Virus record (IMG/VR): IMGVR_UViG_3300005613_000371
Coordinates: 1-25,857 of that record
Strand: one strand, 5' to 3'
Source of the DNA: a virus
DNA length: 25,857 bases
Part shown: positions 9,295-22,277 of the stretch, one piece after another
How positions within the stretch are numbered: the stretch's first letter is position 1
Layout: every line of letters starts with the position of its first letter
The notes under the pieces: model-generated
The model's database searches: none
The model's input: the letters and a program-made list of their open reading frames with translations, nothing else
What the model was told of the DNA's origin: nothing
Made by a program: the position numbers and the translations under genes

Positions 9295-9328
9295 TCTATA
9301 TATAAATATCTGGTTATTTGAAAAAGTT
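9295..9328 (-). promoter_or_regulatory. Copy A of a 34-nt repeated element, candidate phage promoter
   Basis: On the minus strand this reads AACTTTTTCAAATAAC, then C, then AGATATTTATATATAGA. It matches the element at 14402-14435 in 33 of 34 positions. It lies between the terminase stop and the sigma-like gene, 12 nt before the ATG at 9283. The core TTCAA, 8 nt, ATATTTATA also occurs upstream of the nuclease gene (with 7 nt), so a promoter or operator is likely. It does not fit the host-type TAnnTTTG. Confidence 0.5.
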
Positions 9329-10514
9329 AAAAAGAAAACGAAATAAATTCTACACCACCCGCATCAGAGTTATTTCTTTTGTGATAAAGTATTGCGTATC
9401 TAAATGCGTCAGCGGCATGATTAAATTTATCAATGGGGTCATCTAATAGTGTATCACCTTTCATCTTCCACTTATAATTGGATAATTCTTTTTTGATATT
9501 TACACTATCATCATGAACGAAGAATTGTTTTGATTTAACGGCGTCTATACCTTCTTTGATATTCTTTATTGCGTTGGCACAATTAAATCCATTACGTCTT
9601 AAATCTTCAATGATTTCAGGTCTTGCGTAATCACAAACAATAAGGGTTGAATAAGGTAATTTTTCTATTTCAAATATACTTTTTAATCTATCTATAATTT
9701 CAGGTGTTGTTAAATAACTCTCATATAATAATTCTTCAACATAAACTTCATTCTCCACAAAATCACATCTTATCAATGCTGTTTCATCAACGTAACCAAA
9801 ATCCAATCCTAATATTGTATCTGTAATCTTTTCAGGTCTAAACGTAAAATACTTCTGATGATTATATATTGTATGTTTTGATTTGGAAGGAATACCTAAG
9901 GCATATATGTTGTAATAATCTTCATCTGTTTTAATCAACTCCTCAATTTCTTTTACCAATGTTTTTGATAAGAATGGATTGTCCTTATATGTTGAATGTA
10001 TTTTAATTGCGTCAGGTCTATCTATTAAATCATATAACCAGTGTTCTGTATCCGAAGGGTTAAAATCACAAAATATGTTTCCCTCTGTCCTCATATTCAA
10101 CTGAACGAATTCTTCTCTATTTATTTCGTTAGCCTCATTCATCCAACATATATCTCTTTTCCTACCTCTTAATTTTTGTTCGTCATCAGTTGAGAAGAAT
10201 TCTACAATACTACCATTTGGGAATGTATATATGTTTTCTGTTTTATTATGGTATTGGGGATTATATATTTCAAGTTGTCTCATAACCTCAAAGAAATCCC
10301 TCATAACTGTTGCCCTTAACGCTGGAAATGTTTTACGAGTTATAGATATTACCTTATTGGGATTTTGTAAGGCATAGACGATAAATAACTGACATAAGGA
10401 ATATGTCTTACTACTACGAGACCCACCTTGATTGACAATAAATCTAATATTATCATCTTGTAATGCCTTATAGTTTTTACTAAATACCTTCGTTGTCTTT
10501 AACTCTAATTCCAT
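9327..10514 (-). CDS. terL: Terminase large subunit
   Basis: This 395-residue protein is the ATP-driven DNA packaging motor and headful or site nuclease. The ATPase has a Walker A of the form GGSRSSKT (30-37) and a Walker B ending in the catalytic Glu of ICWMNEA (E127). The RNase H-like nuclease shows its three acidic residues at D238 (LGLDFG), D295 (LIVCDY) and D369 (NHAADAFRY). The length and motifs fit the Terminase_3/PBSX-type family. The start at ATG 10514 overlaps the upstream stop by one base. The small subunit is not adjacent: four genes lie between, including a lipoprotein and a HAD fusion, which is unusual. Confidence 0.95.
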   Translation of the reverse strand: MELELKTTKVFSKNYKALQDDNIRFIVNQGGSRSSKTYSLCQLFIVYALQNPNKVISITRKTFPALRATVMRDFFEVMRQLEIYNPQYHNKTENIYTFPNGSIVEFFSTDDEQKLRGRKRDICWMNEANEINREEFVQLNMRTEGNIFCDFNPSDTEHWLYDLIDRPDAIKIHSTYKDNPFLSKTLVKEIEELIKTDEDYYNIYALGIPSKSKHTIYNHQKYFTFRPEKITDTILGLDFGYVDETALIRCDFVENEVYVEELLYESYLTTPEIIDRLKSIFEIEKLPYSTLIVCDYARPEIIEDLRRNGFNCANAIKNIKEGIDAVKSKQFFVHDDSVNIKKELSNYKWKMKGDTLLDDPIDKFNHAADAFRYAILYHKRNNSDAGGVEFISFSF

Positions 10515-11269
10515 TATCTAACTAATACACCAACATTTGGTAATTCTTTTATTACATCAGGGTTATTGTCGTAAAACTTATTTAATCCTAATTGTTTTAC
10601 TTTCTCAATCTTTTTCTCATTACTACCTGTGAAAAATACTCTATAAAGTGGAATACCCAATTCCATTGCGAGTGTATAAAGGGCATAAGAAGAAGACCTA
10701 GCAGAAACAATATAAACTTCTGTAGCACCCGCTGTAATAAGTTTTTTAACATATTCTCTTACTTTGTATTTGGTTAGTGTTTCATCGTAATCAAATCCTA
10801 CCTTTATGGTTGCCAATTCTTCATCTATTTGTTTTAGTTTTTTCTGTGCCCATTCAATTCCTGTGTCTCCACCCCATGCATCATACATCAATCCACCACA
10901 TCCTTCATCGTATGGGACATCCTTATGTTGTTGATGTCTTTTGAATGATGCCATTCTTGATATTGTATCTCTACTGATGTTTTCTCTATTACATAATTGA
11001 TTGGCTCTTTTCTTACCTGTGGCTTCACCACAACTACCCCATCCATTCTCTTCTACCCATCTAAGTGCTCTACAAGCGTTTTCACTCGCTGATTTGGGAT
11101 AATCATTATATGTCTCCAATTCATATTCACCGATGGCAATTCCTTGTTTATACGCTTTCTCTTTGGCTTTATTTCTATCTTCTTCATTACCACATTCGTA
11201 ATAATATTTTTTTTGGTTACCCCATCTGGCGTAACACCCTTCTTTATCTCTTCCTAAATTTACTGGCAT
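10514..11269 (-). CDS. Phage virion-type domain fused to a HAD-superfamily phosphatase domain
   Basis: This 251-residue protein has three parts. Residues 1-50 (LGRDKEGCYARWG, then KYYYECGN) match a short module common in phage head gene clusters. Residues 55-145 carry a conserved block with ASENACRALRWVEENGWGSC and MASFKRHQQ, DEGCGGLMYDAWGG. I know this block from phage structural or protease-associated proteins. Residues 155-251 form a HAD-like domain with all catalytic motifs: DYDET (D160, D162), S189 in VSARS, K219/K220 and DNNPD (D234, D238). HAD enzymes with this layout hydrolyse small phosphates or nucleotides, so a nucleotide or DNA-end phosphatase role is possible but unproved. It lies between the MuF-C-like gene and the large terminase. 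Confidence 0.75.
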   Translation of the reverse strand: MPVNLGRDKEGCYARWGNQKKYYYECGNEEDRNKAKEKAYKQGIAIGEYELETYNDYPKSASENACRALRWVEENGWGSCGEATGKKRANQLCNRENISRDTISRMASFKRHQQHKDVPYDEGCGGLMYDAWGGDTGIEWAQKKLKQIDEELATIKVGFDYDETLTKYKVREYVKKLITAGATEVYIVSARSSSYALYTLAMELGIPLYRVFFTGSNEKKIEKVKQLGLNKFYDNNPDVIKELPNVGVLVR

Positions 11270-11283
11270 TGTATATTGTTTAA

Positions 11284-11895
11284 TTATCTGTTATATCTTG
11301 GGACACTACCTGGTGAGGTTTGTGTTGGTTGTTGATTATTAGGTGATTTAACCAATGAGTTAGTTGATGGTTGGAATAAATACTTAACCCAGATATGTTT
11401 ACAATTTACTCCTCCACGCCAATTAAATACTGAATATGTGTTAGCCCCTCTAATACCAAAACCAGGATTAGATGAGTTTAATCTTTGAATACTATCTTTT
11501 GTTAAAAGTGATAAATTACTTCTAACACTTAACTCTCTACAAAATGGTCTTGTGTTTGGTCCTATACCATTGTTATAACCACTTGTATTTCTTGCCTGTG
11601 GTGCTACAACATATCTGTATAACTTAAATATCTTCTCAGCCACTAATCCTTCTTCTACATTATCTAAAATCTCATCTTCCATATCTTCATTGTCTCCAAC
11701 GATTTGATAGTATTCAGGATTATCCAAATCTTCTTCACTTATACCCAATTCATCAATTGATATAAATAAGTCAGGGTTTTCATCCATATATTTAACAATG
11801 GCTTCTTCTACCTCATCAGGCACAATATTATTCTTCTCCAATATTGTTAAATCTTCTTTTACTTTAATTCCGAATTTGTATTTTACCTCGCACAT
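11284..11895 (-). CDS. MuF-C-like minor head protein
   Basis: The N-terminal half of this 203-residue protein is acidic and helical (about 1-85). The C-terminal part holds the pattern FKLYRYVVAP, RPFCRELSVR (C near 118), GFGIRGANTYSVFNWRGGVNCKHIW and KYLFQP. The Cys, then the G-G-x-x-C-x-H-x-W block, is shared with C-terminal domains attached to minor head or portal-linked proteins in Bacteroidota phages. The usual N-terminal MuF head domain is not evident, so this may be a stand-alone C-terminal module. The tail (QQPTQTSPGSVPRYNR) is disordered. The ATG at 11895 lies inside the lipoprotein gene, overlapping it by 32 nt. Confidence 0.55.
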   Translation of the reverse strand: MCEVKYKFGIKVKEDLTILEKNNIVPDEVEEAIVKYMDENPDLFISIDELGISEEDLDNPEYYQIVGDNEDMEDEILDNVEEGLVAEKIFKLYRYVVAPQARNTSGYNNGIGPNTRPFCRELSVRSNLSLLTKDSIQRLNSSNPGFGIRGANTYSVFNWRGGVNCKHIWVKYLFQPSTNSLVKSPNNQQPTQTSPGSVPRYNR

Positions 11896-17540: not shown

Positions 17541-18737
17541 TTAGTTTTGTGTAGTGTTATTTTTGTTTAATTCCAAAGGTTTGATACGGAAGTTTATTCC
17601 ATCCAATCCAGCTGTTGAGAATAACTTATTTATTATCCTATTCAAAAATTGTTGGTTTGGTCTAATTACGAATTTATCAAATGCTTCAATCTGTGTTTCA
17701 AAATCAGCTGTCCCTAATTTACCTGGTATAGATATCCCAAATAATTCAGGTGTTGTAACCCTCGCACCTGTTAAAATCTTTGATTGAATTTGGTCTGCTA
17801 ACACTGTGTATTGTTTATCAAGGTTAGATGTTTGTATTGGTTCAACTTCTGGAGCTAATTCCTTACCATCAGAAAACATTGTAATAGCTTTACCACTATT
17901 CTTAACTCCACCAAACGATTGTTTTAACCCTCTGACGATGTCATCTCTTTCTTCCAATGTCTTCGGTTTCCTAAAAAATCTTATGATAACAGATGGGTTA
18001 AAACCATTCTCTAAAAGTGATTTATAGAATAACCCTGTTTGTCCTTCAAGCTGTATCCAATTACATGATGCCAAATACGATGGTTCCCAATAATATTCGT
18101 TTGAAATCATTTGTGTCCCTAAATATAAAAGTTGTCTATGGTTTTCCTTATTCGTAACATCAAATGTCGCCATATGGACTGGGTCTTCTCTTCTATTACT
18201 CCAATCTCTTTTGTAGTAATAACAATCAACATCACCATCTTCAAACTTACCACTTCTAATATGTTTTGGACTAATTCTTGTAAATTTAACAACCTTTGAG
18301 AAATCTAAACTCCAAATCACTTCAATAGCAATACTACCATATAATTCCAAATCCTTTGCCAAATCTCTTACAAAGTCCTCAATATCTCTTCTACCATCAA
18401 CATACTCAATAAGTTTATATAGGTTAAGTTTTTGTTCATCTGTAAGGTTTGTATCATCCAATTCAAAACCATCACCAGCAACGATTAAACTCTTAGCGTC
18501 AATAATAGCCTGATGAGTTGGTGATGTATTGTATAAGTTTTGTAGGTATTCAGGGTATTGTTCCCCTTCATCCGTAACATACTCTACCCATTCTCTATTT
18601 TGTTGCTCCTTAATAATTGGTAAAGAGTTTTCCATCTTTAAGTTGAATATTGTATCAACAGCATCACCACCATTTGATGTTGGTAATTCAGGTGTAGTTT
18701 CAACCTTATTATTCTTATTAAAATTAAATATTCCCAT
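17541..18737 (-). CDS. Portal protein
   Basis: This 398-residue protein builds the ring through which DNA enters and leaves the capsid. Typical features are a disordered N-terminus, NTSPTHQAIIDAKSLIVAGDG (about 69-89), a helix with DFVRDLAKDLELYGSIAIEVIW, a beta region (FTRISPKHIRSG, YYYKRDW), then a C-terminal helical part with the conserved ITGARVTTPELFGIS and FDKFVIRPNQQFLNRI. The length is close to that of HK97/SPP1-type portals, a bit short. It is flanked by the small beta-rich protein upstream (7 nt) and the connector downstream (6 nt). Confidence 0.88.
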   Translation of the reverse strand: MGIFNFNKNNKVETTPELPTSNGGDAVDTIFNLKMENSLPIIKEQQNREWVEYVTDEGEQYPEYLQNLYNTSPTHQAIIDAKSLIVAGDGFELDDTNLTDEQKLNLYKLIEYVDGRRDIEDFVRDLAKDLELYGSIAIEVIWSLDFSKVVKFTRISPKHIRSGKFEDGDVDCYYYKRDWSNRREDPVHMATFDVTNKENHRQLLYLGTQMISNEYYWEPSYLASCNWIQLEGQTGLFYKSLLENGFNPSVIIRFFRKPKTLEERDDIVRGLKQSFGGVKNSGKAITMFSDGKELAPEVEPIQTSNLDKQYTVLADQIQSKILTGARVTTPELFGISIPGKLGTADFETQIEAFDKFVIRPNQQFLNRIINKLFSTAGLDGINFRIKPLELNKNNTTQN

Positions 18738-20188: not shown

Positions 20189-21112
20189 TTATGCGTAATA
20201 AACGATTTCTGAACCATAGATAAAATCAACCCCAAATTTGAAATCAGAAACAAAACGAACTGTTCTAGCTCCTGAGATATTTCTTTGTGGTAAAATTGTA
20301 GCCTCACCCATATCAGACATTAAGTCAGTCAATAATAATAAGTTATCTTGAACTGATGCTACGATTTTATCATCACCTAAACCTGGTGCTACGATGATTT
20401 TAACTCCTAAGAATTCTAAATCTCTGTGGTTTTGCATGTAATACATCTCAGCTGATGCTGACGCTAAAGCTTGTCTGTAAAAACCAGCTGTTTTAGTGTT
20501 GATGTAGATAGCTAATCTTTCGTTATCTTTAACTGTTGCTGGGATAGCGTCATATACTTTATTCATCTCAGAGATGATGTTTGATGCTGATAATGTAGTA
20601 GCTGTCAAAGCGATTACATCACCATCAGCCGCTAACTTATCTTGTAATCCTTCAGCACAAGTGAAGTTAGATGCAACTGTAGCTCCACTTCCTTGCCATA
20701 CGATATATTCTAAATCGTTAGATACTTTCTTAGCTACTTCTTGAACTAAATAAGCTTCAACTGTGTCTGGCATCACTTGGTCTGAATTAGACCCAGCTCT
20801 TAATAAATCAGATAAATAATTTCGTTCAAAAGTTTGAGCACACCACTCAAGCCCGATATTTACATCACATACTTCAACTGTTTTTTGTGATAATTCTCCT
20901 TCTCCTGTTGGTGAGAATGAACAAGTTCCATCTTGTAAAATTGACCCTAAATTTAATTGAGCAATTTTAGCTTTTGATTTAACATCAGGGATTAAACGGA
21001 AACTTTCTTTTGATACCCCTTTTAATAATGCCTCGCTGTAAAAACCTTCTAAATCTTTTCCTGCGAATATTGTATTATCTACAAATGATAATTTGAAATT
21101 TGAATTTTTCAT
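20189..21112 (-). CDS. Major capsid protein (HK97 fold)
   Basis: This 307-residue protein forms the icosahedral shell. N-terminal MKNSNFKLSFVDNTIF and the stretch EVCDVNIGLEWCAQTFERNYLSDLL lead to a helical spine (VEAYLVQEVAKKVSNDLEYIVWQG, about 118-141). A P-domain and A-domain pattern follows (YINTKTAGFYRQALA, VKIIVAPGLGDDKIV), and the end has RTVRFVSDFKFGVDFIYGSEIVYY. These are typical features of the HK97-type fold, and the order protease, scaffold, capsid supports it. It lies 67 nt after the protease gene with an A-rich leader. The length is similar to other capsid proteins that lack a fused scaffold part. Confidence 0.9.
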   Translation of the reverse strand: MKNSNFKLSFVDNTIFAGKDLEGFYSEALLKGVSKESFRLIPDVKSKAKIAQLNLGSILQDGTCSFSPTGEGELSQKTVEVCDVNIGLEWCAQTFERNYLSDLLRAGSNSDQVMPDTVEAYLVQEVAKKVSNDLEYIVWQGSGATVASNFTCAEGLQDKLAADGDVIALTATTLSASNIISEMNKVYDAIPATVKDNERLAIYINTKTAGFYRQALASASAEMYYMQNHRDLEFLGVKIIVAPGLGDDKIVASVQDNLLLLTDLMSDMGEATILPQRNISGARTVRFVSDFKFGVDFIYGSEIVYYA

Positions 21113-21179: not shown

Positions 21180-21719
21180 TTATCTAAACTTTCTAATTGT
21201 GTTTATTCTACTTGATAATTCTTCCTCCAATTTGATTTTTCTATCATCAGATTTTTTAGTGATTGTTTCAGCACCTGCCATCTTTGATAACTCCTCAATT
21301 TGAGATTTTAATTCTGTAGCCATCTCTTCACCTTTTTCAGCAAACTTTGTCTCTAACTCTGTTAGTTTATTTACTAATTCAGCGTTTTGTGCTACAAACT
21401 GGTCAAAAAGTGGTTGAACAACTGACATTACTTTTTCTTCAAAAGATAACTCCTCTTCAACTTCTTTAACCTCATCAGTAGTTTCTTCTGACATTTCTTC
21501 TTCAACTACTTCTTCTTCTTTTTCCATGATTTCAACAACTTTTCCTTCAGCGTCTAAAATCACTTTAGCACCACTCTCTAATGTGTGTTCACCTTCTGGT
21601 GCTTTTTCAGTCATTTCTGGGTCTAAAAATAAAGGTGTTCCTACTCCAACTTCTTCTCCATCAAAGTAAATTTCAACACCATCATCTCTTTTCACCATTC
21701 CTAATTTTGTGTTTTCCAT
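21180..21719 (-). CDS. Nested scaffold protein from an internal start
   Basis: The in-frame ATG at 21719 (residue 187, MENTKLGMVKRDDGVEIYF) would give a 179-residue scaffold without the protease domain. The 24 nt before it (rich in A, with AAATAAATAAAAATACAGAA) match the A-rich start regions of this genome, such as the capsid gene's AAAATAAAAATT. The break lies in a linker (LSHNKINKNTE) right after the catalytic domain. This mirrors lambda C and Nu3. It is an inference without expression data. Confidence 0.55.
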   Translation of the reverse strand: MENTKLGMVKRDDGVEIYFDGEEVGVGTPLFLDPEMTEKAPEGEHTLESGAKVILDAEGKVVEIMEKEEEVVEEEMSEETTDEVKEVEEELSFEEKVMSVVQPLFDQFVAQNAELVNKLTELETKFAEKGEEMATELKSQIEELSKMAGAETITKKSDDRKIKLEEELSSRINTIRKFR

Positions 21720-22277
21720 TTCTGTATTTTTATTTATTTTATTATGTGATAATTCTACCAACTCAGCGTCAGCTTTGATTTCTACACTAAATCCTTTTAC
21801 TTCTTCACCTTTAACATACTTGTCCCAAAACTCCTTATCTTCAACCTTAACCGCTCCAAACCAAGTCCCATCTGGTAAGTCAAAACCATACTTTTTAGAT
21901 TTGTCAGGGTTTTCAATCAACCAGTTTTCTTTTAGGTAAGCATTTACCATTTGGTCTGAATGTTGGAAGTTAAATTGGTCGTTGAATTTGTTTTTGTTAA
22001 ACTTTTCAGCGATGAGTTCAATAACCTCTTCATCAAACATAATGTTATACTCATAACCTGTTTTCTCATCTCTTCTATAAATCATCTTATTTGGGATAAG
22101 TAATGGTCCGTATAACAATTGTCTGTCCTTATCGGCTGAGAATTTAATCTCTATTTGTTTTGATAGTTTAATCCAATCTTCCTCTATAGCAGGGAAATCT
22201 ACTAATGACACCATATAAACGCCACTTTCGTCTTCGGGATTTACTTTAATCTTGTATAATGGTATTTTATTCTCCAT
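21180..22277 (-). CDS. XkdF-like prohead protease with C-terminal scaffold
   Basis: This 365-residue protein has an N-terminal protease domain (1-170) of the XkdF type. His106 in FNFQHSD and Ser164 in KGFSVE are the likely catalytic residues of this serine protease family, and WLIENPDKSKKYGFDLPDGTWF is a conserved stretch. From about residue 240 the sequence is acidic (EEEVVEEEMSEETTDEVKEVEEE) and then coiled coil (QNAELVNKLTELETKF), as in scaffold proteins. The C-terminus is basic (SRINTIRKFR) and would bind the capsid protein. The protease cuts the scaffold during head maturation. A second start at 21719 within the gene probably yields the scaffold alone. Confidence 0.85.
   Translation of the reverse strand: MENKIPLYKIKVNPEDESGVYMVSLVDFPAIEEDWIKLSKQIEIKFSADKDRQLLYGPLLIPNKMIYRRDEKTGYEYNIMFDEEVIELIAEKFNKNKFNDQFNFQHSDQMVNAYLKENWLIENPDKSKKYGFDLPDGTWFGAVKVEDKEFWDKYVKGEEVKGFSVEIKADAELVELSHNKINKNTEMENTKLGMVKRDDGVEIYFDGEEVGVGTPLFLDPEMTEKAPEGEHTLESGAKVILDAEGKVVEIMEKEEEVVEEEMSEETTDEVKEVEEELSFEEKVMSVVQPLFDQFVAQNAELVNKLTELETKFAEKGEEMATELKSQIEELSKMAGAETITKKSDDRKIKLEEELSSRINTIRKFR

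Follow-up and report, generated by a model that had tools for sequence, protein, structure and literature searches.

A predicted HAD phosphatase and its companion domain MOD recur as exchangeable cassettes in the head gene clusters of tailed phages

Enzymes fused to phage head proteins are already known. Polyvalent proteins, described from phages and conjugative elements, combine enzymatic and head domains, and both packaging and injection have been predicted for them (Iyer et al. 2017, PMC5512222). The authors of PMC9503650 gave the same reading to Nudix (T4 NudE-like) and 2H phosphoesterase domains that are joined to MuF, portal and the capsid-processing serine peptidase. Across the two papers, packaging and injection are proposed for MuF, portal or capsid serine peptidase fusions whose enzymatic part is ART, 2H, Nudix or another enzyme. 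The MuF polymorphic toxins (PMC5576092) likewise carry enzymatic domains on head morphogenesis proteins near the portal and terminase. The HAD domain studied here was not found in the texts of PMC5512222 and PMC9503650; the terms haloacid, dehalogenase and phosphatase are absent from the main text of PMC5512222, and the HAD therefore seems to be undescribed there. A literature search returned nothing on this HAD or on the protein family phrog_2859. What is new is thus a variant of the known theme, consisting of a HAD enzyme and a companion domain, designated MOD.

The window, which is the whole stretch of 25,857 bases analysed from a virus record, contains an ORF of 251 amino acids that extends exactly from 10514 to 11269 on the minus strand. 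The encoded protein consists of three parts, a 48-residue N-terminal piece (tagA), a MOD of about 100 residues and five helices, and a capless HAD phosphatase domain, and the stop codon of the gene overlaps the start codon of the terminase large subunit gene. The packaging and head cluster is of the terminase-portal phage type, with TerL, MuF, portal, capsid and protease genes:

9327..10514, minus strand, terminase large subunit (TerL, Terminase_3), adjoining the tagA-MOD-HAD gene downstream
10514..11269, minus strand, whole tagA-MOD-HAD gene, 251 amino acids, translational overlap with TerL (TAATG)
10517..10807, minus strand, capless HAD domain, residues 155-251, with D160/D162 (nucleophile, acid), S189, R191, K220 and D234/N235/N236
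10817..11119, minus strand, MOD, residues about 51-151, five helices, phrog_2859
11126..11269, minus strand, tagA, residues 1-48, three strands and a helix in the AlphaFold2 model
11284..11895, minus strand, MuF-like head protein gene, adjoining the tagA-MOD-HAD gene upstream
17541..18737, minus strand, portal protein, a MOD carrier in other phages, here without MOD
20189-21112, capsid-like protein of the head cluster
21180..22277, minus strand, XkdF/S78_2 head maturation protease, which carries HAD and MOD in other phages but neither of them here

A sequence-only reading had described this gene as a predicted HAD phosphatase fused to a head-cluster domain next to the terminase, and the fold, the motifs and the gene maps agree with that description. 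Its N-terminal block (residues 1-145) does belong to head gene clusters, but it is not one block, since it resolves into tagA and MOD. Profile searches with both halves, which it had proposed, gave weak HAD matches for residues 155-251 and assigned the N-terminal MOD to phrog_2859, a family annotated without function.

The HAD of the window is fused to MOD only and not to a structural protein, and MOD itself is joined to head proteins elsewhere. In the relatives, an enzyme and a head domain (S78_2, MuF or U35-type protease) do occur in one polypeptide, as in the polyvalent proteins, with which they share the multi-domain build, the terminase-portal phages and the pairing of an enzyme with MuF or portal domains (PMC5512222). 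The window protein is small by comparison, the carrier is here often the head maturation protease, and the position at which cassettes are swapped is fixed. The resemblance to PMC9503650 lies in a phosphate-acting enzyme on the same set of head proteins; the difference is that the enzyme belongs to the HAD superfamily and has MOD travelling along. The toxins of PMC5576092 are located at MuF C-termini in temperate phages, whereas in the window MuF has a gene of its own, and MuF joined to HAD is rare here (L103, L117). It was also noted that the MuF-like gene at 11284-11895 matches the C-terminal end of the portal profile phrog_33693 (450-513); portal and MuF, which are separate genes in the window, are one protein in relatives, where the MuF domain is fused with portal and with MOD.

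Matches of residues 155-251 to HAD families in Pfam and NCBIfam were weak and sub-threshold (HAD-IIB, E 0.0017 to 2.5e-4), and the curated cut-off of no named HAD family in either collection was passed. Because the fold and motifs fit and the family matches were sub-threshold, the domain was filed under the superfamily and not under a named family. The PHROGs matches were also weak, to phrog_4256 and to the nucleotidase family phrog_8630; the latter matched 25 of 32 HADs (best E 1.1e-6), a weak pull toward nucleotide substrates. AlphaFold2 confidently predicted a HAD/Rossmann fold (mean pLDDT 92.5) from an alignment of 60 rows that left out rows from annotated phage records. The top solved-structure matches of this model in Foldseek were capless HAD phosphatases of the KdsC/YrbI type, with 2p9j as the best (E 2.1e-3, probability 1.00), followed by 3n07, 2r8x and 4hgo; the CopA ATPase was also matched. 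The predicted fold speaks against a different fold for the C-terminal part, which would have undermined the first description. The KdsC/YrbI phosphatases (2p9j, 3n07, 2r8x) are the closest solved folds and share the capless build and the DxD motif, but their identity to the domain is 12-20% (E 2e-3 to 1e-2) and a role in KDO-8-phosphate metabolism is without support here. Enzymes with the nearest solved folds use sugar phosphates as substrates.

HAD-superfamily phosphatases carry the second Asp of DxD. Among 73 distinct HAD relatives, D160, D162 and R191 were invariant, position 189 was S or T in all, and K220 was kept in 72, as were D234 and N235, followed by N236 (71) and D238 (66). The four motifs named from the sequence thus hold across the relatives, and the choice left between K219 and K220 is settled in favour of K220, position 219 being usually alanine. 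Judged from the conserved residues and the model, the domain is a predicted capless phosphomonoesterase with intact catalytic residues. A relationship to T4 PseT, a polynucleotide 3'-phosphatase, found little support (hhalign probability 8.6, E 0.0039, in one comparison; phrog_415 weak in 7 of 32 HADs). A match to glutamate racemase was attributed to chance (phmmer E 1.6), and Pfam matches to DUF5872 and ADH_zinc_N fell below the cut-off and were not accepted as true.

Relatives of the HAD were present in at least 504 IMG/VR stretches. A scan of genome contigs returned one relative, located next to S78_2 and capsid genes in a Bacteroidetes MAG, which is too little to assign a host. A cultured-phage relative is the HAD family hydrolase QMP87651.1 of the Flavobacterium phage elemo group (hhalign probability 98.8); it differs in that it stands alone, without MOD and outside the head cluster. 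The elemo gene (L251:2477-2830) is located between tail-fibre and GroEL/GroES genes and offers a cultured system.

MOD modelled alone gave five helices (pLDDT 94.7), and neither profile nor fold searches of the PDB identified a solved structural relative (best fold E 2.2), so that the idea of a known fold was dropped. Relatives were found in at least 597 IMG/VR stretches, of which the best 80 were mostly 70-80% identical across the domain, the remainder of the protein often being unrelated. A divergent branch without the cysteines was represented by cultured phages of Vibrio, Roseobacter and Synechococcus and by Pseudomonas phage PaBG, and the MOD of haloarchaeal viruses was closer to the window MOD than this branch. 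MOD is located at the N-terminus of the major capsid precursor in the cultured phages Synechococcus phage S-CBS1 and Roseobacter phage CRP-811, within the portal protein of HRTV-4 and HRTV-28, and within a protein annotated as prohead protease in HGTV-1. Taken together, MOD is very common, highly conserved, without a solved relative, and joined to almost all classes of internal head protein. In PaBG (L085), a stand-alone MOD relative annotated as a putative DNA-binding protein is located beside topoisomerase genes; this case, outside the head cluster, hints that MOD may bind DNA.

The tagA-MOD-HAD architecture recurred in six other contigs (L002, L003, L004, L005, L094 and L097), which rules out that the fusion is an assembly error. 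Architectures were counted per ORF from the gene maps of the loci in hand, and the ORFs with HAD were distributed as follows:

HAD alone, 31
HAD-S78_2 protease, 25
HAD-MOD, 10
MOD-HAD, 9 (the window and one contig each entered twice)
MOD-HAD-S78_2, 6
HAD-MOD-S78_2, 4
MOD-HAD-U35-type protease, 2
HAD-MuF, 1
MuF-HAD-MOD-S78_2, 1

The ORFs with MOD and without HAD were:

S78_2-MOD, 14
MOD-ClpP, 6
MOD-MuF-S78_2, 5
portal-MOD-MuF, 4
MOD-MuF, 2
portal-MOD, 2
MOD without other recognised domain, many

PHROGs and Pfam searches confirmed the fusion partners, and further portal-MOD, portal-MOD-MuF and MOD-protease cases exist beyond these counts. Every larger carrier of HAD in the gene maps was a head gene, namely the S78_2 protease, MuF or the U35-type protease. 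The MOD-HAD fusion is accordingly not the non-standard arrangement it had been taken for; it recurs, with many different orders of the domains, in tailed phages from environmental metagenomes.

HAD and MOD were fused in both orders and were also encoded by neighbouring genes. A count of fused versus separate cases, suggested at the outset, showed that MOD was located in the same ORF at 26 of 82 HAD loci and in a separate adjoining gene at 5. Each of 32 contigs searched end to end, many of them 29-35 kb, contained exactly one HAD. Fourteen of the 32 contained a MOD, a fraction that is uninformative since the contigs had been picked for HAD and some for MOD; informative are the lack of second copies and of distant MODs, as each of the 14 had one MOD and the HAD was in the same frame or adjacent in all 14. 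On a tree of the 73 HAD domains the architectures required 20 changes (minimum possible 7), the presence of MOD 16 and the order of HAD and MOD 5; these values are rough, given few columns and many unresolved forks.

One exchange could be followed at the nucleotide level. L112 and L124 have near-identical DNA on both flanks, and L124 contains a clean in-frame insertion of MOD in the protease gene, giving the order tagB, MOD, HAD; apart from a few bases (TTTGC), a target-site duplication was not seen. At the site where L124 has MOD, L128 has a different, Cys-rich unit. The tags recur in other contexts too: tagA also precedes HAD-only genes and one MOD-MuF gene in other phages, and tagA and tagB stand before HAD or MOD alike, tagB also within the protease. 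Within the head and packaging gene cluster, MOD and HAD are thus cassettes that can be exchanged. Furthermore, the motif [FLMY]A was found within ten residues just before the HAD in 21 of 21 protease-embedded HADs (4.6 expected; for example L139 and L112) and in 28 of 38 free HADs (8.9 expected). It may be a cutting site of the maturation protease or, given the relatedness of the sequences and its presence in free genes as well, simply the edge of the HAD unit, and we treat it as a lead only.

The swapping of HAD and MOD pieces among head proteins suggests that enzymes are carried inside the virus particle. Maturation protease, MuF, portal and capsid precursor enter or line the prohead interior, and in phages with such fused carriers the HAD would therefore be brought into the prohead. 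The explanation that best accounts for the observations jointly, and which we hold with moderate confidence, is that the window gene is a stand-alone carrier of two head cassettes. In other phages HAD and MOD would reach the procapsid interior built into the protease, MuF or the U35-type protease; in the window phage, tagA and MOD probably bring the small protein, made together with TerL, into the procapsid. The intact phosphatase would then stay in the head, be delivered with the DNA, and remove a phosphate from a nucleotide, oligonucleotide or nucleic-acid end early in infection. The head association of HAD and MOD is well supported; that the enzyme is retained in the mature virion and injected, and what kind of substrate it acts on, is inferred. 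By analogy, the HAD fits the pattern of head-fused, packaged and injected enzymes. A nucleotide or nucleic-acid end is favoured as substrate by the weak similarity to nucleotidase profiles and by the theme of these systems, whereas the nearest folds are sugar phosphatases. Against a head cargo, an insert in the protease could be degraded or exit the procapsid before maturation, the window HAD has no structural fusion partner, and the elemo relative is located outside the head cluster.

The position beside the terminase could instead indicate a packaging factor, with the HAD trimming phosphates at DNA ends or regulating TerL or portal, and MOD as the tie to the motor. Free HAD genes are mostly located upstream of TerL; those of the window clade overlap or abut it (0-13 nt in ten loci), most others are 280-620 nt upstream and a few are further away, and portal-MOD fusions occur in several phages. 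In about as many phages, however, the HAD is located in the maturation protease beside the capsid gene, without a link to TerL, and action on DNA ends during packaging is for this reason less favoured. PseT, the phosphatase acting on polynucleotide ends, is also an unconvincing relative. Of the two roles first suggested a carried-in enzyme fits better; we regard a packaging factor as unlikely. The frequent insertion into the maturation protease, which is normally consumed during head maturation, and the location of MOD in the N-terminal part of the S-CBS1 and CRP-811 capsid precursors would also suit an enzyme that is active only within the prohead, where it would target a phosphoprotein or metabolite, and that disappears when the head matures. 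Yet 72 of 76 MOD loci had no nearby HAD, so the HAD is dispensable for head assembly as such, and a purely assembly-phase role is likewise unlikely.

The 31 free HAD ORFs, most without MOD, together with the elemo relative, are what would be expected of a hitch-hiking moron, a late accessory metabolic gene placed in the head cluster by chance and acting in the host cytoplasm. Repeated in-frame insertions into the head protease and the strict coupling to MOD are unexpected for such a bystander, which makes this quite improbable. A reuse of the HAD fold as a non-catalytic scaffold or decoration of the head would agree with its location among structural genes, but is very hard to reconcile with D160, D162 and R191 being invariant in 73 distinct sequences and K220 and D234 being kept in 72.

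Under the preferred reading of a head cargo, the particles of hundreds of uncultured phages may contain this enzyme. More tentatively, phages of the window type may possess a head-cargo cassette system, in which tagA, tagB, MOD, HAD and the Cys-rich unit are swapped in frame at fixed places of prohead-entering proteins, chiefly just before the protease body; the protease would free the cassettes by cutting at their borders, and a change of enzyme would be a one-gene change. If the cassettes are indeed head cargo, natural swaps such as L112/L124 are ready-made comparison pairs.

Two smaller pieces were also noted. The Cys-rich unit, of about 115 amino acids, separates tagB from HAD within the head protease (L128:5377-6747, L125:5338-7092) and, in occupying the place of MOD in L124, represents a further exchangeable cassette. 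A DUF3721 unit of 33 amino acids, a small cassette-like piece, is located beside MOD in a portal protein (L010:1647-4088) and in a protease (L047:5158-6303).
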